Below, piece after piece: positions 19,447 to 45,615 of a stretch of DNA of 58,748 bases. Origin of the DNA: Natronorubrum halalkaliphilum. Lineage in GTDB: Archaea > Halobacteriota > Halobacteria > Halobacteriales > Natrialbaceae. Location: positions 1 through 58,748 of the forward strand of contig NZ_WUYX01000036.1 in the NCBI RefSeq assembly GCF_009834785.1. The letters run 5' to 3'. The notes under the pieces are model-generated. The model worked only from the letters and a program-made list of their open reading frames with translations, was not told the origin of the DNA and searched no databases. Position 1 is the stretch's first letter, and every line of letters begins with the position of its first letter. Both the position numbers and the translations under genes were made by a program.

Positions 19447-19521
19447 GTCACCAATATATAAAACCTCGTTATATGGCGGTTAATCCCTAAGGGAGTATAC
19501 AGCGTGTTTTCGGATGAAACG
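19447..19521. promoter_or_regulatory. Divergent promoter region of paaABCD and the HTH-10 regulator
   Basis: The 100-bp gap holds ATATATAAAAC (19453-19463), which read on the minus strand can serve the regulator gene. GTATAC (19495-19500) is centred about 25 nt before the paaA ATG at 19522. Between them is TATGGCGGTT (19472-19481), the same 10-mer found inverted at the liv-type promoter (13327-13336); its first eight bases also occur upstream of the second paaK (22369-22376). Assignment as a binding site is inference. Confidence 0.5.
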
Positions 19522-20463
19522 ATGGACCTGGACACAGTCAAAGAACGCGCGGGGCCGCGGGAGTTCAGCCCCGCCGACGACCTCCCCGAGGAGTACCGGA
19601 AGGCGGCGACCCGGATGATCGAATTCCACGCGAACAGCGAGATAATGGGCGCGTACCTGGAGCGTCCATTCATCCGAGAAGCGCCGAGTATCGATCGCAA
19701 GCTGGCGTTTTCCGCCAAGGTCCAGGACGAGATCGGTCACGGCCAGTTGCTCTACCGCGCCGCGGAGTCACTCGGCGTCAAAACCCGCGAGGAAATGTTA
19801 GACGACCTCGCCAACGGCGACGGGAAGTTCCTCAACTGCTTCCACTATCCGATGGAAAAGTGGCCGGAAACGGCGATGATCGCCTTCTTCGTCGACGGGG
19901 CGGCGATGCGCCGGCAGGCGACGCTCCGACGGACCAGCTGGGAACCATACGCCCACGCGATGGACAAGGTTTGCTTCGAGGAAGGGTTCCACGTCAAACA
20001 CGGCGAGAGCATTCTCGCGGAGTTGATGAACGGCTCGAAGAAAGAACAGGAGATGACCCAGGAGGCCTTCGAAACGTGGTGGCCCCGCATCATCCAGTTC
20101 TTCGGCCCGACCGACGAGCAGAGCACGCACCACGGATTCGCATCCCAGGTCGGTCTGAAACAGAAGTCCAACGACGAACTCCGTACCGCCTTCCTCAACC
20201 AGTACATCCCGAAAGCCGAGAAGTACGGACTCGAGATTCCCGACGAGCCACGCATCCGCGAGAACGACGAGGGCAACTACGAGGTCGTCGAAGACGACCT
20301 GGACTGGGACGAGTTCTTCACGATCGCAAAGAACGAGTACGAACCCGGTGTCGGCCAGATCAACGGCCGAAAAGAGGCACAGGAGGCCGTCGAGTGGGTT
20401 CGTGAAACGATCGAGGGCGGTCCCGTCCCCTCGGGTAACCAGCCGCCACAGGCAGCCGACTAA
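19522..20463 (+). CDS. paaA: Phenylacetyl-CoA 1,2-epoxidase catalytic subunit PaaA
   Basis: This 313-residue diiron monooxygenase subunit converts phenylacetyl-CoA to the 1,2-epoxide. Iron-ligand motifs are visible in the four-helix bundle: Glu39 region (FHANSEIMG), QDEIGHGQL with Glu70 and His73, and EEGFHVKHGE with Glu153/154 and His157. Length matches bacterial PaaA (about 310). The ATG at 19522 gives MDLDTVKERAG; the GTG at 19504 would add six residues. It is first in a five-gene set with 2-bp or overlapping junctions. Confidence 0.95.
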   Translation: MDLDTVKERAGPREFSPADDLPEEYRKAATRMIEFHANSEIMGAYLERPFIREAPSIDRKLAFSAKVQDEIGHGQLLYRAAESLGVKTREEMLDDLANGDGKFLNCFHYPMEKWPETAMIAFFVDGAAMRRQATLRRTSWEPYAHAMDKVCFEEGFHVKHGESILAELMNGSKKEQEMTQEAFETWWPRIIQFFGPTDEQSTHHGFASQVGLKQKSNDELRTAFLNQYIPKAEKYGLEIPDEPRIRENDEGNYEVVEDDLDWDEFFTIAKNEYEPGVGQINGRKEAQEAVEWVRETIEGGPVPSGNQPPQAAD

Positions 20464-20465
20464 CA

Positions 20466-20786
20466 ATGATTTGGGAAGTATTCCGACAGGAGAAGGAAGG
20501 CGAGTATCACACCCACTGCGGAAACGTCCACGCCCCGGACCGGGAGATGGCAAAGCAGTTCGCCGCGATCCAACACGGTCGGCGCAAGCCGACGAACAAC
20601 ATGTGGGTCGTCCCGAAAGAAGAAGTCGGCGAGGTCGACGGAGAGAAGTACTCGTTCGGCGGCACGACCGACAAGAGCTACCGGTGGGCGACGGGGTACA
20701 ACGTCACCGCCGACGACGCGAGCGAGGTCGTCGAATCTTCGGACGAACAGGAAGACGCCGAACGGCGGCGGAGCGAGGTGGCATAA
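20466..20786 (+). CDS. paaB: Phenylacetyl-CoA epoxidase subunit PaaB
   Basis: This 106-residue structural subunit linking PaaAC heterodimers opens with MIWEVFRQEKEGEYHTHCG and continues HAPDREMAKQFAAIQHGRRK. This is the conserved PaaB layout (bacterial homologues begin WEVFIRSKxGLxHKHVGSLHA). The region NMWVVPKEEV is also conserved. The last 25 residues are an acidic haloarchaeal tail. It starts 2 bp after paaA and is immediately followed by paaC (TAA then ATG). Confidence 0.93.
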   Translation: MIWEVFRQEKEGEYHTHCGNVHAPDREMAKQFAAIQHGRRKPTNNMWVVPKEEVGEVDGEKYSFGGTTDKSYRWATGYNVTADDASEVVESSDEQEDAERRRSEVA

Positions 20787-21650
20787 ATGCCCGCCTTCGA
20801 CTCCCCCGCGTCCCTCGACGACGAGCAGGCCGAGGCCCTCGAGGCCCTCCTGTTGGAGCTGGCCGACGACGAGTACGTACAGGCCGAACGCTACACCGAG
20901 TGGCAGGTTCGGGCCCCGACCCTCGAGTCGGATCTCGCGCTCGCGAACAACGCACAGGACGAACTGGGCCACGCCCGACTGTGGTACGACGTCCTGGAAG
21001 ACCTCGGTCACGAGGAACACGAACTGATCTACGAGCGCGAGCCCGACGAATGGCGTCACAGCACGCTTACAGAACGTCCGTTCGACGACGGCGACTGGGC
21101 AGACGTCATCCTGCGACACTACCTCTACGATGTCGCCGAAGAACTGCGCCTCGAGGCCCTCGAGGAGTCCTCGTACGCGAAGATCGCCGACCGCGTCGGC
21201 AAGATCCAAAACGAGGAAGCGTATCACCGCGAACACGCCGAAAACTGGATGGAGCGGCTCGCCGACGACGACGAGAGCAGCGAACGCCTGCAAGATGCCG
21301 TCGACCGGCTGTTCCCCCACGCGCTGACGCTGTTCGAAGCCGGTAGTGCGGATCTCGAGGAAACGATCGTCGAGGCCGGCTTCCGCGACGCCTCGCTCGC
21401 GGAACTTCGCGAGGAGTGGCTCTCGATCGTGGTCCCGTACCTCGACGAACTGGGACTGGAAACGCCGGTCTCGGAGATCATCCAGTACGACGACTACGAC
21501 CTCGAGGTCACGGACGACACCCTGCCCGAGGTTCGCGGTCGGGACGGCACGCACACCGAAGCGTGGGAGGAACTCCACGCGGAGTTCACCAACACCTACC
21601 GCGAACTCGAACGGAGCGAAGCGACGAAGATCATGGCGAAACCAGAATAA
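20787..21650 (+). CDS. paaC: Phenylacetyl-CoA epoxidase subunit PaaC
   Basis: This 287-residue ferritin-fold partner of PaaA stabilises the complex and does not hold the active diiron site in bacteria. It shows NNAQDELGHARLWYDVLEDLGH and, later, KIQNEEAYHREHAENWMERL, both hallmarks of PaaC. It starts directly after the paaB stop codon and overlaps paaD by 1 nt (TAATG), so the operon is translated as a coupled unit. Confidence 0.93.
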   Translation: MPAFDSPASLDDEQAEALEALLLELADDEYVQAERYTEWQVRAPTLESDLALANNAQDELGHARLWYDVLEDLGHEEHELIYEREPDEWRHSTLTERPFDDGDWADVILRHYLYDVAEELRLEALEESSYAKIADRVGKIQNEEAYHREHAENWMERLADDDESSERLQDAVDRLFPHALTLFEAGSADLEETIVEAGFRDASLAELREEWLSIVVPYLDELGLETPVSEIIQYDDYDLEVTDDTLPEVRGRDGTHTEAWEELHAEFTNTYRELERSEATKIMAKPE

Positions 21651-22081
21651 TGAACAGCAATACTCCGGATCCGGAACCGAACCCGAACGCCGACGCCACG
21701 CCCTGTGCGTACACCGAGTACCGCGAGGGAGACGCCGTCGACGAACTTCCCGCCACCGGCGACGGGGCAACCGGCCTCGAGGCCGACGTCTGGGACGCCC
21801 TCTACGAGATCGAGGATCCCGAGATGCCGATCAGCATCGTCGATCTCGGCCTGATCTACGGCGTCAGCGTCGAGGACGGCGCCGTGGCCGTCGACATGAC
21901 GCTAACGTACTCCGGCTGCCCGGCCCGCGACATGCTCACCGGACAGGTCGAGGACGCTGTCGCCGCCGTCGACGGCGTCGAGGACGCCGAGCTACGGCTC
22001 GTCTGGAGTCCGGAGTGGACCGTCGAGATGGTAACGCAATCGGGTAAAAACGACTTACAAGAATTCGGACTGAGCGTATGA
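21650..22081 (+). CDS. paaD: PaaD N-terminal half (MIP18/DUF59 domain)
   Basis: This 143-residue protein consists of a MIP18/DUF59 domain (about residues 45-143: LYEIEDPEMPISIVDLGLIY, TLTYSGCPARDML with Cys90, WSPEWTVEMVTQSGK). PaaD is needed to mature or activate the epoxidase, like other DUF59 proteins in iron-sulfur cluster assembly. In bacteria PaaD continues after an LREYGI-type segment into a zinc ribbon. Here the chain ends at LQEFGLSV, and the ribbon is a separate overlapping gene at 22078-22248. The first 40 residues are an acidic, low-complexity extension. Confidence 0.92.
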   Translation: MNSNTPDPEPNPNADATPCAYTEYREGDAVDELPATGDGATGLEADVWDALYEIEDPEMPISIVDLGLIYGVSVEDGAVAVDMTLTYSGCPARDMLTGQVEDAVAAVDGVEDAELRLVWSPEWTVEMVTQSGKNDLQEFGLSV

Positions 22082-22248
22082 AACGACGCCAGGATCCGAG
22101 CGTCACGACCAGCGGTGAAACTGCGGGCGCGACGTGTCCCTACTGCGAATCGACGAATACGGTCCGCGAGCATCCGAAAGGACCATCGCTCTGTCGGTCG
22201 ATGCATTACTGTAACAGCTGCGAGCAGCCCTTCGAAAAGTTCGAATAA
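22078..22248 (+). CDS. PaaD C-terminal zinc-ribbon half as a separate 56-residue protein
   Basis: An ATG overlapping the paaD stop (ATGA at 22078-22081) opens a 56-residue frame ending in TAA at 22246-22248. It contains GATCPYCESTNTVREHPKG, then PSLCRSMHYCNSCEQPFEKF. This aligns with the C-terminal zinc ribbon of bacterial PaaD, which has CPRC, then FGSTACKALYRC, then PFDYFK. The two CxxC pairs and an extra Cys are conserved. It is probably the zinc-binding half of PaaD acting in trans with the MIP18 half. It is easily missed because of its size. Confidence 0.85.
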   Translation: MKRRQDPSVTTSGETAGATCPYCESTNTVREHPKGPSLCRSMHYCNSCEQPFEKFE

Positions 22249-22360
22249 GCGGCTCGATTCTGCAGAATTTTCCGGCAGCAGTTCGCCTCGAGTGACGACC
22301 CGATACCGGTCGGACTCGAGTGTCACTTCTGTCGTCGATTTCTCGTTCTACAGGGGCGGG

Positions 22361-22380
22361 GGCTAATATATGGCGGATAC
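22361..22380 (+). promoter_or_regulatory. TATATGGCGG motif upstream of the second paaK
   Basis: AATATATGGCGGATAC (22365-22380) lies about 60 bp before the paaK start at 22438 and repeats the TATGGCGG core found in the paaA and liv-type promoters. The AT-rich part may be the TATA box of a transcript with a leader of some 40 nt. The 189-bp gap after the paaD ribbon gene makes a separate promoter likely. Confidence 0.4.
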
Positions 22381-22437
22381 GCCACCCAACTAACCAAAAA
22401 CTATGGTACTCCATCTCGTGGACTCGAGCAGAAATTC

Positions 22438-23721
22438 ATGGTGGAATCCATCGAGTACGCGTCGCGCGACGAGTTGCGAGAGTTACAGTCCGAACGGCTC
22501 CAATCGGCGGTGGCACACGCATACGAGAACGTCCCGTTTTACCGGGACCGACTCGACGATGCCGGCGTTTCACCCGGGGACGTCGAATCGGTCGACGACA
22601 TCGGAACGCTCCCGTTTACCACGAAAGCGGATTTCCGCGCCGAGTATCCTGACGGCTTGTTCGCCGTCGACGACGACGAACTCCGCCGGATTCACGCCTC
22701 CTCGGGGACGACGGGCAAACCCAAGATCGTCGGCTACACCGAGGCCGACCTCGACCTGTGGCACGAGGTGATGGCCCGGTCGATGGCCGCGGCGGGACTC
22801 GACGCGAACGATACGATCCAGAACGCCTACGGCTACGGCCTGTTCACCGGCGGACTGGGTTTTCACGGCGGCGTCGAGGAACTCGGCGCGGCGGTGATCC
22901 CCGCCGGAAGCGGCAACACGCAGCGACAGGTCGACCTCGCACGAGACCTCGAGAGCGACGCGATCGGCTGTACGCCCTCGTACGCGCTCTACTTCGCCGA
23001 GACGGCGGCGGAGATGGGCGTCGATCCGCGCGACCTGTCGATTTCGACGGTGCTCTACGGTGCTGAGCCGTGTACGGATCCGATGCGTGAAGAGATCGAG
23101 GGCCGACTCGGCGCGACCGGAATCGAGAACTACGGCCTCTCCGAGGTGATCGGTCCGGGCGTCGCCGTGGAATGCCACGAGGCCCAGGACGGGATGCACA
23201 TCTGGGAGGACCACTTCTACCCCGAAGTGATCGATCCGCAGACCGGTGAGCCCCTTCCGGAGGGCGAGGAGGGCGAACTCGTGTTGACCTCGCTGTCGAA
23301 GGAAGCGCTGCCCGTGTTGCGGTATCGAACGGGCGACCTCACGACGCTGACCTCCGACGAGTGTGCCTGCGGCCGCACGATGGTCCGAATGGACAGCGTC
23401 ACCGGCCGTGCCGACGACCTCCTCATCGTCCGCGGCGTCAACCTCTACCCCAGCCAGATCGAGGACGTCGTCCTCGAGTTCGACGCCGTCGCCCCCTACT
23501 ACCGGATCGACCTCTACCGCGAGGACACCCTCGATCGACTCGAGTTGACCGTCGAACTCGTCGACGACTTCGACGGCGACGTTGACCGACTCCGTGACGA
23601 ACTGCTCGAACGGTTGCAGAACGCGCTGTCGTTTAGACCGGACGAACTCGAGTTAGCCGAGTACGGAACGATCGAGCGCACGGAAGTCGGGAAGGTAAAG
23701 CGCGTCTACGATCACCGCTGA
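22438..23721 (+). CDS. paaK: Phenylacetate--CoA ligase, second copy
   Basis: This 427-residue adenylate-forming ligase has the same motifs as the copy at 10522-11808: ASSGTTGKPKI at 87-97, YGLSEVIGPG, RTGDLTTL, RADDLLIVRGVNLYPSQIE and ERTEVGKVKRV. The two proteins agree along almost their whole length and differ mainly in the N-terminal 50 residues, the 110-190 region and the last 60. Two PaaK isoforms with different substrate preference or regulation are known in bacteria. This one follows paaABCD on the same strand and is probably the pathway enzyme. Confidence 0.93.
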   Translation: MVESIEYASRDELRELQSERLQSAVAHAYENVPFYRDRLDDAGVSPGDVESVDDIGTLPFTTKADFRAEYPDGLFAVDDDELRRIHASSGTTGKPKIVGYTEADLDLWHEVMARSMAAAGLDANDTIQNAYGYGLFTGGLGFHGGVEELGAAVIPAGSGNTQRQVDLARDLESDAIGCTPSYALYFAETAAEMGVDPRDLSISTVLYGAEPCTDPMREEIEGRLGATGIENYGLSEVIGPGVAVECHEAQDGMHIWEDHFYPEVIDPQTGEPLPEGEEGELVLTSLSKEALPVLRYRTGDLTTLTSDECACGRTMVRMDSVTGRADDLLIVRGVNLYPSQIEDVVLEFDAVAPYYRIDLYREDTLDRLELTVELVDDFDGDVDRLRDELLERLQNALSFRPDELELAEYGTIERTEVGKVKRVYDHR

Positions 23722-27227: not shown

Positions 27228-28007
27228 ATGAACGACGCCTCTCGATCCCCTCGCCCGGTGACGACGACGGAGTCTTCGCTTCGCATTCTCGAGTTTCTCA
27301 AACGGAATCCCGGGCAAACGCTCGAGGAGTTGAGCGACGAGCTAGATCTCGCTCGGAGCACGATTCACCGGCATCTCCTCACGCTCGAAGACAACGACTT
27401 GCTCGTCAGGGAAGACGGCGCGTTCTACGTCGCGCTTCGGTTTCTCGACTTCGGGATCAGCGCCCGTAACCGCGTCCCGTTTTTCGATGACGGCCGACGA
27501 CAGGTCGATCGACTGGCCGAGGAAACCGGCGAAAAAGTCTGGCTCGTCGCGAAAGAGGGCGATTTCAGCGTCCACCTCTACAAGGCGTCCGGAGACAGTC
27601 CGTTGCGAACGTCCGCGCGCGTCGGCCAGCGGCGGTACCTCCACCAACTCGCTGCCGGAAAGGCTATCCTGGCGAATCTCGACGAGGACGAACTGCAGGC
27701 GATCATCGACCGGCAGGGGTTGGTGGAAATGACCGAACAGACCATCACCGACGAGGAATCGCTCCGCGAAGAACTGGCAGCGATTCGAGACCGGGGGTAC
27801 GCGTTCAACATCAGCGAGTCCATCGAGGGGTTGAACGCGGTCGGCGCGCCGATCCGTGACGACGACGGCACGCCGATCGGCGGAATCAGCATCTCCGGAC
27901 CGGCAAATCGCGTCAAAGGCGACTACCTCCGGAACGAACTGCCGGATAAACTACTCGCGGCGATCGACGAGATACACATCAATCTCAGGTACGGCTCGAG
28001 CGAGTAG
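27228..28007 (+). CDS. IclR family transcriptional regulator
   Basis: This 259-residue protein has a winged-helix domain (about 12-75: SLRILEFLKRNPGQTLEELS, then LARSTIHRHLLTLEDNDLL) and an IclR effector-binding domain (HQLAAGKAILANLDEDELQA, GYAFNISESIEGLNAVGAPI, IGGISISGPANRVKGDYL). IclR proteins sense small organic acids. Its targets may be the acylase gene (divergent, start at 26874) or the E1 genes downstream, whose upstream region holds three copies of a palindrome. The ATG at 27228 starts just before the HTH. A related regulator is encoded at 43015-43782. Confidence 0.9.
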   Translation: MNDASRSPRPVTTTESSLRILEFLKRNPGQTLEELSDELDLARSTIHRHLLTLEDNDLLVREDGAFYVALRFLDFGISARNRVPFFDDGRRQVDRLAEETGEKVWLVAKEGDFSVHLYKASGDSPLRTSARVGQRRYLHQLAAGKAILANLDEDELQAIIDRQGLVEMTEQTITDEESLREELAAIRDRGYAFNISESIEGLNAVGAPIRDDDGTPIGGISISGPANRVKGDYLRNELPDKLLAAIDEIHINLRYGSSE

Positions 28008-28122: not shown

Positions 28123-28144
28123 TATATCCGAATAGCTTGGATTA
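28123..28144 (+). promoter_or_regulatory. 22-bp palindromic operator candidate, copy 1
   Basis: TATATCCGA, a 4-nt centre, then CTTGGATTA. The arms ATCCGA/AA and TTGGAT are imperfect inverted repeats. It shares 18 of 22 bases with copy 2 and 20 of 22 with copy 3. It lies 116 bp after the IclR stop codon and 740 bp before the E1 alpha start. Confidence 0.6.
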
Positions 28145-28361
28145 AATCTGACTTAGTGGCCGCGGCTGATTACACGCATACAGCTGTATAAAATCGGGAG
28201 CAATATCGATCATATTCGGCCCGAGCGTCGGTTTTGACCGCCCCAACAGCCAATCATTTCTCCGACATAGTATCCACTATGAGCCGTTAGAGTGCTCTTG
28301 TTGACTGTATGAGTCAATTGTGTATATAATAGATAGATTTCACTAATTTCTCCTGGTCCAC

Positions 28362-28383
28362 TATATCCGAGTTACTCGGATTA
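28362..28383 (+). promoter_or_regulatory. 22-bp palindromic operator candidate, copy 2
   Basis: TATATCCGAG, TTA, then CTCGGATTA. This copy is the most symmetrical: ATCCGAG and CTCGGAT are perfect 7-bp arms around TTA. It is on the same strand as copy 1, 239 bp downstream, and lies about 30 bp after the TATA-like tract GTGTATATAATAG. Confidence 0.6.
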
Positions 28384-28505
28384 TATTCGATCTCACCCGA
28401 TTAGTTCACGCGTGCTTCCCAGGAAACACCTGAATAATCGTCACTCGAGTTCGGATCGATGGGGTCGTTACCAGTTAAACGGCTCCGATCCGGCATCGAA
28501 CACAC

Positions 28506-28527
28506 TAATCCAAGATAATCGGATATA
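28506..28527 (-). promoter_or_regulatory. 22-bp palindromic operator candidate, copy 3
   Basis: On the minus strand this reads TATATCCGA, TTAT, then CTTGGATTA, nearly identical to copy 1. It lies 144 bp after copy 2. Three such matches within 405 bp are far beyond chance for a 22-bp pattern. Confidence 0.6.
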
Positions 28528-28882
28528 CCTTCTCGCGACTCCTACACGCTTGTGAGGACACGTCACAGAATTATCGTTGTGACTCGGTCTCACGGAACTA
28601 TTAAGTAGCGCCTTCATGATTGTATACTATATGGTAACCGCCAGTACAAAGGAGGTTAGCGCTGTGACCGAGCTACCCCGTGGCTTTAGCATCTGCGTTA
28701 GCGAGGTCTTCCTCTTTACAGGTAAACTGGCGGAGAGCCCGTCGATGCGAGATGTAACACGCACTCGCATCGGCCACATTCTCTGGGGATAACCCGGGGG
28801 ATCGTTCCCAGCGATCCCGGGAATACCCAGACCGGCCGTGGTACAGCGCTATGAGTAGCCACCGGTCCACCAGCAAGCAACA

Positions 28883-30031
28883 ATGAGTGCACAAAAAGAA
28901 GCAGAACGCAGCGTGAACAGCGATCCAACGACGATAACCGACGATCCGATCCAGATCCTCGACGAGGACGGAAACGTCCTCCCCAACGCAGAGGTTCCCG
29001 ACCTCTCGGAGGGCCAGCTGCTGTCGATGTACGAGGATATCAAGCTGGCGCGCAAATTCGACCAGCGCGCGATCAGCTTACAGCGACAGGGTCGGGTCGC
29101 CACCTACGCACCGATGACGGGGCAGGAAGGCACCCAGGTCGCGACGAGTTACGCCCTCGACGACTGCGACTGGCTGTTCCCGACCTACCGCGAACACGCG
29201 GCCAAGTACGTCCACGGAATGAGCCTCGAGTCGCTGTTGCAGCCGCTTCGTGGCTATCGCGACGGCTACGCGATTCCGGACGACGTCAACGTCATGCCGG
29301 AGTACATCCCGATCGCGACGCAGTTGCCACAGGCCATGGGGATGGCCTGGGGACACAAGAAACAGGGGCGAACGGACGAGGCCGTGCTCTGTCACTTCGG
29401 CGACGGCGCGACCTCCGAAGGCGACTTCCACGAGGGACTGAACTTCGCCGGCGTGTTCGACGTCCCCGCGGTGTTCGTCTGTAACAACAACCAGTGGGCG
29501 ATCTCCGTGCCCCGAGAGCGCCAGACCGCGAGCGAAACGATCGCACAGAAGGCGAGAGCCTACGGTCTCGAGGGCGTCCGCGTCGACGGGCTCGATCCGC
29601 TCGCCATGTACGAGGTCACGCGCGAAGCCCTGCGGAAGGCGAAGAATCCGACCGACGACGAACGCCGACCGACCCTCATCGAAGCGGTCCAGTACCGGTA
29701 CGGTGCACACACGACCGCGGATGATCCGTCAGTCTATCGCGAGGAAGACGAAGCGGAACCGTGGCGGCAGAAGGATCCGCTCGATCGCTTGCAACACTAC
29801 CTCGAGACCGAGGGGATTCTCGACGAGGAACGCGAGGCCGAAATCGACGACCGTATCGAGACCCAACTCGGCGACGCGGTCGATGCCGCCGAAAACGCGT
29901 CGGCGGATCCGGACGAAATCTTCGAACACGTCTACGATGAGATGCCGGACCGGCTCCGCGAACAGCGGGACGAACTGAACGCGCTCCGCGAGAAGTACGG
30001 CGACGACGCGTTCTCCGAGGTGTTAGAATGA
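28883..30031 (+). CDS. 2-oxoacid dehydrogenase E1 component, alpha subunit
   Basis: This 382-residue subunit of a heterotetrameric pyruvate/branched-chain 2-oxoacid dehydrogenase E1 has the ThDP motif from GDGATSEGDFHEGLNFAGVF (residues 173-192) to NNNQW at 201-205. The substrate/phosphorylation-loop region is QYRYGAHTTADDPSVYR. The N-terminal part has MTGQEGTQVATSYAL, typical of the group. Haloarchaeal E1 paralogues include forms acting on isoleucine-derived or aromatic 2-oxoacids; the substrate here is not evident. It overlaps E1 beta by 4 nt (ATGA). No E2 or E3 gene is nearby. Confidence 0.92.
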   Translation: MSAQKEAERSVNSDPTTITDDPIQILDEDGNVLPNAEVPDLSEGQLLSMYEDIKLARKFDQRAISLQRQGRVATYAPMTGQEGTQVATSYALDDCDWLFPTYREHAAKYVHGMSLESLLQPLRGYRDGYAIPDDVNVMPEYIPIATQLPQAMGMAWGHKKQGRTDEAVLCHFGDGATSEGDFHEGLNFAGVFDVPAVFVCNNNQWAISVPRERQTASETIAQKARAYGLEGVRVDGLDPLAMYEVTREALRKAKNPTDDERRPTLIEAVQYRYGAHTTADDPSVYREEDEAEPWRQKDPLDRLQHYLETEGILDEEREAEIDDRIETQLGDAVDAAENASADPDEIFEHVYDEMPDRLREQRDELNALREKYGDDAFSEVLE

Positions 30032-31044
30032 GTTCGGCCGCGACGCCGTCGACCGAGTCCAGCACGGACAACCTCTCGCTCGTCGAAGCGGTCCGCGACG
30101 GACTCTACACTGAGATGTCGACCGACGAGCGCGTCGTTGTGCTCGGCGAGGACGTCGGCAAGAACGGCGGCGTTTTCCGGGCCACCGACGGCCTGTACGA
30201 GGAGTTCGGGGCCGGCCGCGTCGTCGACACCCCGCTCGCAGAGTCCGGCATCGTCGGGTCGGCAATCGGGCTGTCCCTGTCCGGAATGCGACCGGTGGCG
30301 GAGATGCAGTTCATGGGGTTCATCTACCCTGCGTTCGATCAAATCGTCAGCCACGCCTCCCGGCTCCGAAGCCGCAGCAAGGGTAAGTACTCGGTTCCGA
30401 TGGTGATCCGAGCGCCTTACGGCGGCGGCATTCGAGCCCCGGAACACCACTCTGAATCGAAGGAAGCGTTCTTCGCACACGAACCCGGATTGAAGGTCGT
30501 CTGCCCGAGCACGCCGTACGACGCGAAGGGACTGCTCATCGCCTCGATTCGCGACCCTGACCCGGTCATCTTCCTCGAGCCGAAACTGATCTATCGCGCG
30601 TTCCGCGAGGACGTTCCGATGGAATCGTACGAGGTCCCGCTCGCCGACGCCGCGATCCGGCGGGAGGGAAGCGACGTCACGGTATACACGTGGGGTGCGA
30701 TGACCAGACCCTCCCTCATCGCCGCCGACAACGTCGCCGAGGAGTACGGCGTCGACGTCGAGGTCGTCGACCTGCGGACGCTGTCGCCGCTGGACGTCGA
30801 GACGATCGTCGACTCGTTCCAAAAGACCGGCCGAGCCGTGATCGTCCACGAGGCCCCGAAGACCGCCGGACTCGGTGCCGAAGTGGCGACGACCATCCAG
30901 GAGAACGCGGTGCTCTATCAAGAGGCGCCGATCGAGCGCGTCGCCGGCTTCGATACGCCGATGCCGCTGCACGCGCTGGAGGATTACTACCTTCCACAGG
31001 CCGTCCGCATCCAGGATCAGATACTCGAGACCGCCGATTTCTAA
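30028..31044 (+). CDS. 2-oxoacid dehydrogenase E1 component, beta subunit
   Basis: This 338-residue partner of the preceding E1 alpha has characteristic segments VVLGEDVGKNGGVFRATDGL, ESGIVGSAIGLSLSGMRPVA, the Gln/Met-rich EMQFMGFIYPAFDQI, and the C-terminal transketolase domain (YTWGAMT, VVDLRTLSPLDVETI, VIVHEAPKT). The complex decarboxylates a 2-oxoacid and would pass the acyl group to an E2 lipoyl protein encoded elsewhere. It starts in an ATGA overlap with E1 alpha, so the two are made together. Confidence 0.92.
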   Translation: MSSAATPSTESSTDNLSLVEAVRDGLYTEMSTDERVVVLGEDVGKNGGVFRATDGLYEEFGAGRVVDTPLAESGIVGSAIGLSLSGMRPVAEMQFMGFIYPAFDQIVSHASRLRSRSKGKYSVPMVIRAPYGGGIRAPEHHSESKEAFFAHEPGLKVVCPSTPYDAKGLLIASIRDPDPVIFLEPKLIYRAFREDVPMESYEVPLADAAIRREGSDVTVYTWGAMTRPSLIAADNVAEEYGVDVEVVDLRTLSPLDVETIVDSFQKTGRAVIVHEAPKTAGLGAEVATTIQENAVLYQEAPIERVAGFDTPMPLHALEDYYLPQAVRIQDQILETADF

Positions 31045-42934: not shown

Positions 42935-42975
42935 GTTCGAACGTTACGAACGAAATCGCTACTCGTTCGAATAAC
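42935..42975. promoter_or_regulatory. Inverted repeats upstream of the second IclR gene
   Basis: GTTCG (42935-42939) pairs with CGAAC (42947-42951), and CGAACGA (42947-42953) pairs with TCGTTCG (42963-42969). The 14-mer CTCGTTCGAATAAC (42962-42975) recurs exactly, inverted, at 43828-43841 beyond the end of the IclR gene. The site lies 40-80 bp before the IclR start and is a likely autoregulatory operator. Confidence 0.5.
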
Positions 42976-43014
42976 GGGAACAGGTTTTTGTCGGTTCTAC
43001 TCCAGTATGCGCGT

Positions 43015-43782
43015 ATGGCAAGCGACTCGCGACACAGACCGGTCGAAACCGTCGAGACGGCGTTCGACATCGTCGACGTCGTCAAACACACCGACGGTGC
43101 GGGGGTCACCGAACTCGCCGCCGAACTCGACCTCGCGAAAAGTACCGTCCACCGGCACGTAAAAACCCTCGAGTCGCGGGGGATACTCGTCCGTGAGGGA
43201 GACACCTACCGTATCAGCACGTGGTTTCTCGACTACGGGATTCACGTGCGCAATCGCCATCGGCTATTCGATGTCGCCAAACCGAAGGTAGACGAACTCG
43301 CCGCCGAAACCGACGAGAAAGTCTGGTGCGTGATCGAAGAGCACGGGATGGGCGTTCACATCTACGGGGCCGAGGGACGCCACTCCGTGAAAACCCACGC
43401 TCGGATCGGCCAGCGGACACATCTCCATCAGTTCGCTGCGGGCAAGGCGATTCTCGCCCATCTCCCCGAGGACCGGATCGAGTCGATTCTCGACGACTAC
43501 GGGCTGGCTTCCCAGACCGAACGGACGATTACGGATCGCGAGGAACTTCAAAACAATCTCGAGACGATCAGGGAGCAGGGATACGCGTTCAACCACGAAG
43601 AGTCGGTTATCGGCGTCCACGCCGTCGGCGCACCGATCAGAAACGAGTCGGGCAACGCTATCGGCGCGATCAGTATCGCCGGACCCGCGAATCGACTGCG
43701 TGGCGATTTGCTGACCGACGAACTCCCCGATCTCCTACTCGGTGCGACGAACGAAGTCGAGGTCAATCTCGCCCACTCCTGA
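43015..43782 (+). CDS. IclR family transcriptional regulator, second
   Basis: This 255-residue protein has a winged helix (about 10-70: GVTELAAELDLAKSTVHRHV, then KTLESRGILVREGDTY) and an IclR effector domain (HQFAAGKAILAHLPEDRIES, GYAFNHEESVIGVHAVGAPI, IGAISIAGPANRLRGDLL). It is similar throughout to the regulator at 27228-28007. It probably controls the EthD/VOC/ThDP/amidohydrolase genes and itself, through the GTTCGAA-type repeats on either side of its gene. It starts 107 bp after the HD gene. Confidence 0.9.
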   Translation: MASDSRHRPVETVETAFDIVDVVKHTDGAGVTELAAELDLAKSTVHRHVKTLESRGILVREGDTYRISTWFLDYGIHVRNRHRLFDVAKPKVDELAAETDEKVWCVIEEHGMGVHIYGAEGRHSVKTHARIGQRTHLHQFAAGKAILAHLPEDRIESILDDYGLASQTERTITDREELQNNLETIREQGYAFNHEESVIGVHAVGAPIRNESGNAIGAISIAGPANRLRGDLLTDELPDLLLGATNEVEVNLAHS

Positions 43783-43821: not shown

Positions 43822-43841
43822 GTTCGAGTTATTCGAACGAG
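43822..43841. promoter_or_regulatory. Inverted repeat downstream of the second IclR gene
   Basis: GTTCGA (43822-43827) and TCGAAC (43833-43838) are perfect arms around GTTAT. GTTATTCGAACGAG (43828-43841) is the exact reverse complement of 42962-42975 before the gene. Two sites bracketing a regulator gene could form a repression loop, but this is inference. Confidence 0.45.
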
Positions 43842-44184: not shown

Positions 44185-45054
44185 TTATAACTCGAGGAAC
44201 TCCTCGGCCGTCTCCCAGAGGATCTTCCGCTGGATCGACTCGTCGAACCCGAGTGCCTCGAACTGCTCGAGCCACGGCTCCGGCTCGAGCATGGGGTAGT
44301 CGGTACCGAACATGACCTTGTCCGAGAGCAGCGACTGGGCGTACTCCAGCACCTGGTCGTCGATATATCTCGGCATCCAGCCGGAGAGATCCATGTAGAC
44401 GTTGCCCTTCTGCTGGCAGATCGCGAGCTGTTCTTTCTCCCAGGGGTAGGCGGGATGGGCGATGAGGATCTTGAGATCCGGATGGTCGGCCGCCAGGTCG
44501 TCGATCAGCATCGGGTTGCCGTACTTGATCTTCAGCCCGCGACCGCCCGGCGAACACGCGCCGAGCGTCGAGTTACCGCCGTGGAAGACGATGGGAACCC
44601 CGAGGTCTTCGATCGTCGCGAACAGCTCCTCGTGTTCGGGATCGGACGGATCGAAACCCTGTGCGATCTGCTGGAATTTGAACCCCGAGAGATCCAGATC
44701 CTCGACGCAGCGGATCGCCTCTTCCACGCAGTCGTCTTTGAGCGGATCGACGGAGCCGAAGCCGATGAAGAAGTCGTCGTACTCGTCGCGAACTTCGGCG
44801 ACGTAGTCGTTCGGAACGGGTGGGTTCCCCGTGTTCGTTTCCGCGTCCCACCCGAGCAGGACGGCGCGGCCGACGCCCGCGTCCCGATACTCCTCGATCA
44901 TGTTCTCGTAGGTGTCCGTCTCGAGGTCGGCGCCGAATCGATCGGCCGCGTCTTTCATCATTTGTCCCCCCGCGTCGTGGAGGAATTCGCTCGTCGGCTG
45001 GTGGGCGTGCATGTCGATTGCGCGCGGCTCGTCGAGTACCGTTGGTGCACCCAT
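44185..45054 (-). CDS. ACMSD-like amidohydrolase family protein
   Basis: This 289-residue TIM-barrel protein of the amidohydrolase-2 group includes the decarboxylases ACMSD, gamma-resorcylate decarboxylase and 5-carboxyvanillate decarboxylase. The metal-binding residues are His16 and His18 (IDMHAHQ), His158 (VFHGGN), His200 (LIAHPAYPW) and Asp252 (MFGTDYPM). The fold and ligands suggest a non-oxidative decarboxylase or hydrolase of an aromatic or 2-oxo acid. It is a single gene converging on the IclR gene. The EthD/VOC/ThDP neighbourhood fits ring or side-chain catabolism, but the substrate is not known. Confidence 0.87.
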   Translation of the reverse strand: MGAPTVLDEPRAIDMHAHQPTSEFLHDAGGQMMKDAADRFGADLETDTYENMIEEYRDAGVGRAVLLGWDAETNTGNPPVPNDYVAEVRDEYDDFFIGFGSVDPLKDDCVEEAIRCVEDLDLSGFKFQQIAQGFDPSDPEHEELFATIEDLGVPIVFHGGNSTLGACSPGGRGLKIKYGNPMLIDDLAADHPDLKILIAHPAYPWEKEQLAICQQKGNVYMDLSGWMPRYIDDQVLEYAQSLLSDKVMFGTDYPMLEPEPWLEQFEALGFDESIQRKILWETAEEFLEL

Positions 45055-45615
45055 ACTACGAGCGATGTGACGGCGCTATATGTATGTTCTCACGGCGGAA
45101 ACCCGTTAGCGACTCGGGATGATTCAGGATCCGGGTTCGAGGTGTCTCCCCCTCGAAACGACCGTCGCTAATACGTCTATTTAATGATGGTTTTGGAAAT
45201 GTGTCTGCCTCTAAGAAGATATACCCAGATCCTGTCTCTCGAGACGTTTGCTGAAATTAGCGCCTAACAGAGCCCCTAGCATGAAGACCGGATCCCATAA
45301 CCCACTAATGTATAGAATTTTATATTCTGGCGACATCATCCGTTAGATCCCATATTTCTGCGCTTTGGTACCTAATACGACGGTCAGTCAAAATAAGTCG
45401 AGAAGGTATTTCTCAGTTACCTATTCTAAATCGGATATAGAAAGAGTTCCATCATATCGAGGGGGGGGACTGTCCGGATAGATCGCTGGTCAATTCGCAC
45501 ACGATCAGAAGCAACTTACCCGCCGCTCCAAAGCCGGCCGTCGAAGGAGTCCGCCCAGTCGATCGGCCTCGAGCAAGCAAGCTCCCGCTGCGGCGATGAC
45601 ACCTACCCCGTACAG
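45055..45615. other. Low-GC intergenic stretch
   Basis: This 561-bp gap lies between the amidohydrolase start and the Lhr stop. It is AT-rich for this genome and holds no supported gene. It contains a run of eight G residues near 45462 and, at 45429-45439, AATCGGATATA. On the minus strand this matches the left half (TATATCCGATT) of the E1 operator candidate copy 3. The minus-strand promoter of the amidohydrolase gene probably includes CATATATAG (45077-45085). Confidence 0.4.

Follow-up and report, generated by a model that had tools for sequence, protein, structure and literature searches.

Operators of bacterial group-1 IclR regulators follow the consensus GKTYCRYW3-4RYGRAMC, and one subgroup, NGT-12-ACN, has the consensus NGTYCRAW4TYGRACN (Suvorova and Gelfand 2021, PMC8222616). 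Many regulators that recognize operators of the form GTNCG-N5-6-CGNAC govern aromatic catabolism (PMC8222616). The characterized haloarchaeal IclR regulators XacR, GacR, RhcR, and MscR are activators (PMC11519228). We found no haloarchaeal IclR operator consensus in the openly accessible literature, which covers little of this field, and a published XacR-type consensus of similar shape may exist. Here, we analyzed a stretch of 58,748 nucleotides from Natronorubrum halalkaliphilum (contig NZ_WUYX01000036.1), hereafter the window, which encodes two IclR-family regulators, referred to as IclR1 and IclR2.

RESULTS

Palindromes between IclR1 and the E1 genes

The initial annotation described three copies of a 22-bp palindrome in the gap between the gene for IclR1 (27228..28007, + strand) and the genes for the alpha (28883..30031, +) and beta (30028..31044, +) subunits of a 2-oxoacid dehydrogenase E1, which are the proposed targets. 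All three copies are present, at 28123-28144 (+), 28362-28383 (+), and 28506-28527 (-). At up to three mismatches, the window holds no further match to the 22-bp pattern, and none arose in 100 shuffles. The palindromes are genuine and not random. The 22-bp repeat stands as described, but its two-fold symmetry spans only 17 bp, RTCCRA-N5-TYGGAY, which in the window copies reads ATCCGA-N5-TYGGAT. The outer TAT/TA bases are common to all three copies yet are not symmetric, and they are weakly retained in relatives. The consensus of the 17-bp dyads is RTCCRA-RYWRY-TYGGAY. We refer to the three cores as putative operator 1 (ATCCGAATAGCTTGGAT, 28126..28142, +), operator 2 (ATCCGAGTTACTCGGAT, 28365..28381, +), and operator 3 (ATCCGATTATCTTGGAT, 28508..28524, -). 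Operator 2 is a perfect 7-3-7 dyad, in agreement with the earlier description of its arms, whereas operators 1 and 3 each depart from ATCCGA-N5-TCGGAT at one position. The dyad centers are 239 and 143 bp apart.

A left half-site had also been reported upstream of an amidohydrolase gene at 45429-45439. The half-site exists (TATATCCGA, minus strand), although it occupies 45431-45439, and a search for its second arm found none in the window. A genome of the same genus (G104) carries a full palindrome where the window has the half-site: a perfect ATCCGAGATTCTCGGAT at C1:181874-181890 (locus L110), approximately 260 bp upstream of the ortholog of the amidohydrolase encoded at 44185-45054 in the window.

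Scanning the genome and its relatives, as the initial annotation had suggested, showed that exact copies are not scattered and that the motif is tied to IclR1 orthologs. Across the 4.56 Mb of the genome, the core ATCCGA-N5-TYGGAT was matched exactly six times. Three of these matches fall within the IclR1-E1 gap; the other three have C/G-containing centers and no IclR gene within 1.5 kb. With an A/T center, the core occurs at about 25 places in 391 haloarchaeal genomes, nearly half of which have an IclR-type gene within 1.5 kb. With three copies in one gap, a repeat family scattered over the genome might be suspected, as might chance palindromes in A/T-rich DNA. A dispersed, REP-like family would have many copies unlinked to promoters, against the six exact places found here. 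Either origin is extremely improbable given the empty shuffles, the concentration of half of the genome's exact cores in one gap, and the consistent linkage of the motif to IclR genes in other genera.

Related dyads were seen elsewhere. In the same genome, an IclR paralog at C50:68534 (locus L084) has four upstream TCCGA-N5-TCGGA-like dyads (at 786, 887, 1052, and 1226), with one to two mismatches to ATCCGA-N5-TCGGAT. Dyads of the latter form also occur at L054 (G019 C3:446253), L095, and L053, where the flanks retrieved contain no IclR gene.

Linkage of the motif to IclR1 orthologs

IclR1 scored well above the Pfam cut-offs for both IclR-family domains, with 41.1 bits for HTH_IclR (cut-off 22) and 127.7 bits for IclR_C (cut-off 24). 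Orthologs with 68-87% identity were found at 12 other loci in a sample of 292 haloarchaeal genomes, and, identified by name, orthologs also occur in Halopiger, Natronococcus, Haloferax, Halocatena, and Haloarchaeobius. Haloferax larsenii and H. mucosum naturally carry both IclR1 and the E1 locus. With the window excluded, a site lay near the IclR1 ortholog at 11 of 14 loci when up to two mismatches were allowed and at 6 of 14 when one was allowed. These counts are not fully independent, as the genomes are related and share gene order, and two of the 14 loci (G016 and G094) were first found through the motif, the other 12 having been found through the protein.

A reversed-pattern control (44 vs 387 at ≤2 mismatches) was unfair in composition, as TAG, a stop word, appears in the reversed arm, and permuted arms were used instead. 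Across 179 permuted arms, the mean number of loci was 1.68 (maximum 10) at ≤2 mismatches and 0.18 (maximum 5) at ≤1, and none reached the observed counts. One permuted arm, CATCGA, gave 20 sites at ≤2 mismatches against 19 for the motif, so that the locus counts and the counts at ≤1 mismatch are the better measures. The spacer optimum was sharp, with 27 sites at N5 and at most nine at any other spacing. When dyads in the flanks were enumerated de novo, coding palindromes (TCGA and CGAC words) overwhelmed the list; TCCGA-N5-TCGGA and GTTCG-N7-CGAAC ranked near the top.

Three of the 13 members of the IclR1 clade had no site within 1.5 kb of IclR1, and in these three, candidate sites occurred farther off in the same cluster. 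In genome G107, the phenylacetate (paa) genes, the leader described below, and E1 (80% identity) are all present; no IclR1 ortholog was found among its matches, and its 12-kb E1 locus contains no motif. Between the window and G016, the gap from IclR1 to the promoter aligns poorly while the dyads are kept, and one pair in each genome is separated by 143 bp. Selected sites within drifting sequence show this pattern. The suggestion that an IclR-type regulator acts on the palindrome thus gained support from its cross-genome linkage to adjacent IclR1 orthologs, and, as predicted from sequence, the neighboring IclR1 very probably docks on the three palindromes.

IclR2 has candidate sites of its own

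IclR2 (43015..43782, +), a paralogous regulator, had been put forward as a second candidate for the palindrome. It lies in the same cluster as the dyads, and similar palindromes occur at distantly related IclR genes elsewhere; ATCCGA-N5-TCGGAT is also found beside distant IclR genes with different recognition helices. The dyads could, accordingly, be sites for IclR2 or for some other, unlinked regulator. We consider this very unlikely. The IclR2-like genes form a sister group of IclR1 at about 50% identity, and the IclR1-type motif was present at none of their 17 loci and absent from G107, where IclR1 is absent. IclR2-type loci have a different half-site instead, in GTTCGA-N5-TCGAAC dyads that flank IclR2 and its relatives.

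In the window, such sites are found at 42935..42951 (+, GTTCGAACGTTACGAAC), at 42965..42981 (+, GTTCGAATAACGGGAAC), just upstream of IclR2 and with similar upstream sites in several relatives, and at 43822..43838 (+, GTTCGAGTTATTCGAAC), where the dyad is perfect, as it also is beside five relatives. Exact GTTCG-N7-CGAAC occurred 11 times in 7 of 11 IclR2-type loci, with other spacings occurring at most twice each. The predicted IclR1 and IclR2 sites are two half-sites in the same geometry.

A single-residue specificity code, with R in IclR1 and K in IclR2 at one predicted contact position, was considered but gained no support, as distant IclR proteins with other residues adjoin ATCCGA dyads.

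Proposed target genes and predicted pathway

By its annotated gene content, the window is a phenylacetate cluster. It carries the phenylacetate genes paaA, paaB, paaC ... paaK (19504..23721, +), and PaaA, PaaB, PaaC, and PaaK all scored above their NCBIfam cut-offs. The window also encodes a LIV-type ABC transporter, a copper amine oxidase, and a penicillin-amidase-like enzyme. In relatives, the dyads precede a class I aminotransferase gene, an SNF-type Na+ symporter gene, or E1 itself; a search of the IclR1-E1 gap found no remnant of a symporter or aminotransferase gene. The phenylacetate cluster, together with the sites before aminotransferase and Na+ symporter genes in relatives, argues for a role of IclR1 in aromatic catabolism, and its gene neighborhood indicates that IclR1 probably controls aromatic amino acid or arylpyruvate catabolism. 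The simplest pathway suggested by this neighborhood would start with uptake and transamination of aromatic amino acids; the E1-containing complex would then oxidatively decarboxylate the arylpyruvate, and PaaABC would follow.

E1-alpha passed the cut-off for PDH_E1_alph_x (441 vs 411 bits), a model name that does not settle the substrate. The substrates of several 2-oxoacid dehydrogenase complexes of Haloferax volcanii have not been identified (PMC8305020). The locus would tie a haloarchaeal E1 to aromatic amino acid and phenylacetate catabolism, which makes the substrate question directly testable.

Promoter context and mode of regulation

A TATA-like promoter element of the E1 operon (AACTATTAAGTA, 28596..28607, +) contains an ATTAAGT that is invariant in seven genomes. 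All three dyads lie upstream of it, with centers 80-470 bp away, operator 3 being the closest, and some target genes are several hundred base pairs from the sites. Since the sites are upstream of the TATA-like box and XacR, GacR, RhcR, and MscR are activators, activation is likelier than repression. IclR1 is most likely an activator, although sequence alone leaves activator versus repressor undecided. Overall, there is good reason to read the dyads as IclR1 operators through which the E1 alpha/beta operon is most likely activated.

In the model that follows, the binding of IclR1, its activating role, its effector, any looping, and what the leader does are all inferred. An IclR1 dimer would read two inverted RTCCRA half-sites with 5 bp between them, and several dimers (or tetramers) would sit on the sites, which are spaced 143-239 bp from one another and all precede the E1 TATA box. 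Effector-bound IclR1 would then activate transcription of E1 alpha/beta and, in relatives, of the aminotransferase and Na+ symporter genes as well. The effector may be an aromatic intermediate such as phenylpyruvate, phenylacetate, or its CoA ester. The transcript would start with a structured leader RNA, a second and independent control step.

Alternatively, IclR1 may be a repressor. Its occupied sites, spaced 143-239 bp, would then be joined in a loop, keeping the E1 promoter shut for as long as no effector releases the protein. Several distant sites are present in the window and in several relatives, and IclR-family proteins can bind as tetramers and include repressors (PMC8222616). No site overlaps the TATA box or the start, however, and the distances between sites correspond to 22.8 and 13.6 helical turns, which are non-integer. 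With activation documented for the characterized haloarchaeal IclR proteins (PMC11519228), a looped repressor is possible but rather unlikely, and we favor activation by IclR1.

A structured leader RNA of the E1 operon

Directly upstream of E1-alpha, the segment at 28629..28882 (+) is predicted to form a leader RNA of ~254 nt with eight helices. The start of E1 transcription is predicted at ~28629-28631. An alignment of six genomes from four to five genera covers almost all of the leader, and the fold of the window sequence is 4.6 SD more stable than those of shuffles. Among 13 distinct leader sequences, both sides had changed in 26 of 68 base pairs, compared with 13.4 ± 2.4 in shuffles and 7-18 for slid structures. 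The fitting of this alignment to the model biases it in the model's favor. An unfitted alignment of six sequences gave 12 such pairs versus 5.1 ± 1.9. In 10 of 292 haloarchaeal genomes, a covariance model gave a single match, in every case before E1-alpha. A comparison with Rfam gave no match at the gathering threshold, the best being a weak one to FinP (E = 2.6). By comparative analysis, the leader is a conserved, covarying structured RNA that was previously undescribed.

The leader contains a 53-codon ORF (28631-28792), and an ORF of 52-53 codons is open in all six aligned genomes. A coding reading was judged unlikely, with substitutions equal at the three codon positions (0.31/0.35/0.35).

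We read the leader as a putative cis-regulatory RNA. Tentatively, control of the E1 operon may be stacked in two layers. One would be a haloarchaeal IclR operator variant with wide spacing, the other a new, riboswitch-like leader class of ~254 nt that would respond to an aromatic 2-oxoacid, to a CoA ester, or to some other cofactor and is so far restricted to haloarchaeal E1 genes of phenylacetate-type loci. To our knowledge, few cis-regulatory leader RNAs are known in archaea, and the E1 leader adds a further candidate.

DISCUSSION

This analysis assigns candidate operators to two haloarchaeal IclR paralogs. Known regulators resemble them in part. XacR, GacR, RhcR, and MscR are, like IclR1, IclR-type regulators of catabolic genes in haloarchaea, but their targets concern sugars and sugar alcohols (PMC11519228), unlike the aromatic locus described here. 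PcaR, PobR, PcaU, and HmgR-type operators, grouped as GTNCG-N5-6-CGNAC in PMC8222616, share the half-site type, although their boxes are 5-6 bp apart, whereas the GTTCG boxes of the IclR2-type sites are 7 bp apart. Neither IclR1 nor IclR2 reached the NCBIfam cut-offs for PcaR/PcaU/PobR; the equivalog scores were 129.9 bits of the required 284.75 for pcaR_pcaU and 156.2 of 350 for BhcR.

The closest counterpart is the bacterial group-1 subgroup NGT-12-ACN. Its half-site GTYCRA resembles the RTCCRA of IclR1 and fits the GTTCGA of IclR2. The inverted GTYCRA / TYGRAC arrangement is recovered both in the symmetrized IclR1 site matrix (RTCCRA) and in the IclR2 sites (GTTCGA), with the outermost base of IclR1 half-sites being A more often than G. 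Both systems also have an inverted repeat with a partly A/T center and an adjoining IclR gene in a catabolic locus. They differ in spacing. The bacterial subgroup has a W4 spacer (W3 in odd subgroups), while the haloarchaeal spacer scan peaks solely at N5, giving an odd dyad of 17 bp. Tandem group-1 sites are commonly, though not universally, centered 18-22 bp apart, whereas sites in this archaeal system are 120-250 bp apart and the three dyads upstream of E1 lie outside the tandem range. The few dyads at distant IclR genes suggest, by extrapolation, that wide spacing may be common in the haloarchaeal IclR class.

The palindrome had been called a new operator. This holds for its wider 5-bp spacer but not for its half-site, which is the known bacterial group-1 box (PMC8222616). 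A bacterial half-site that appears to be reused with a wider spacer offers a testable case of a shift in operator geometry between domains.
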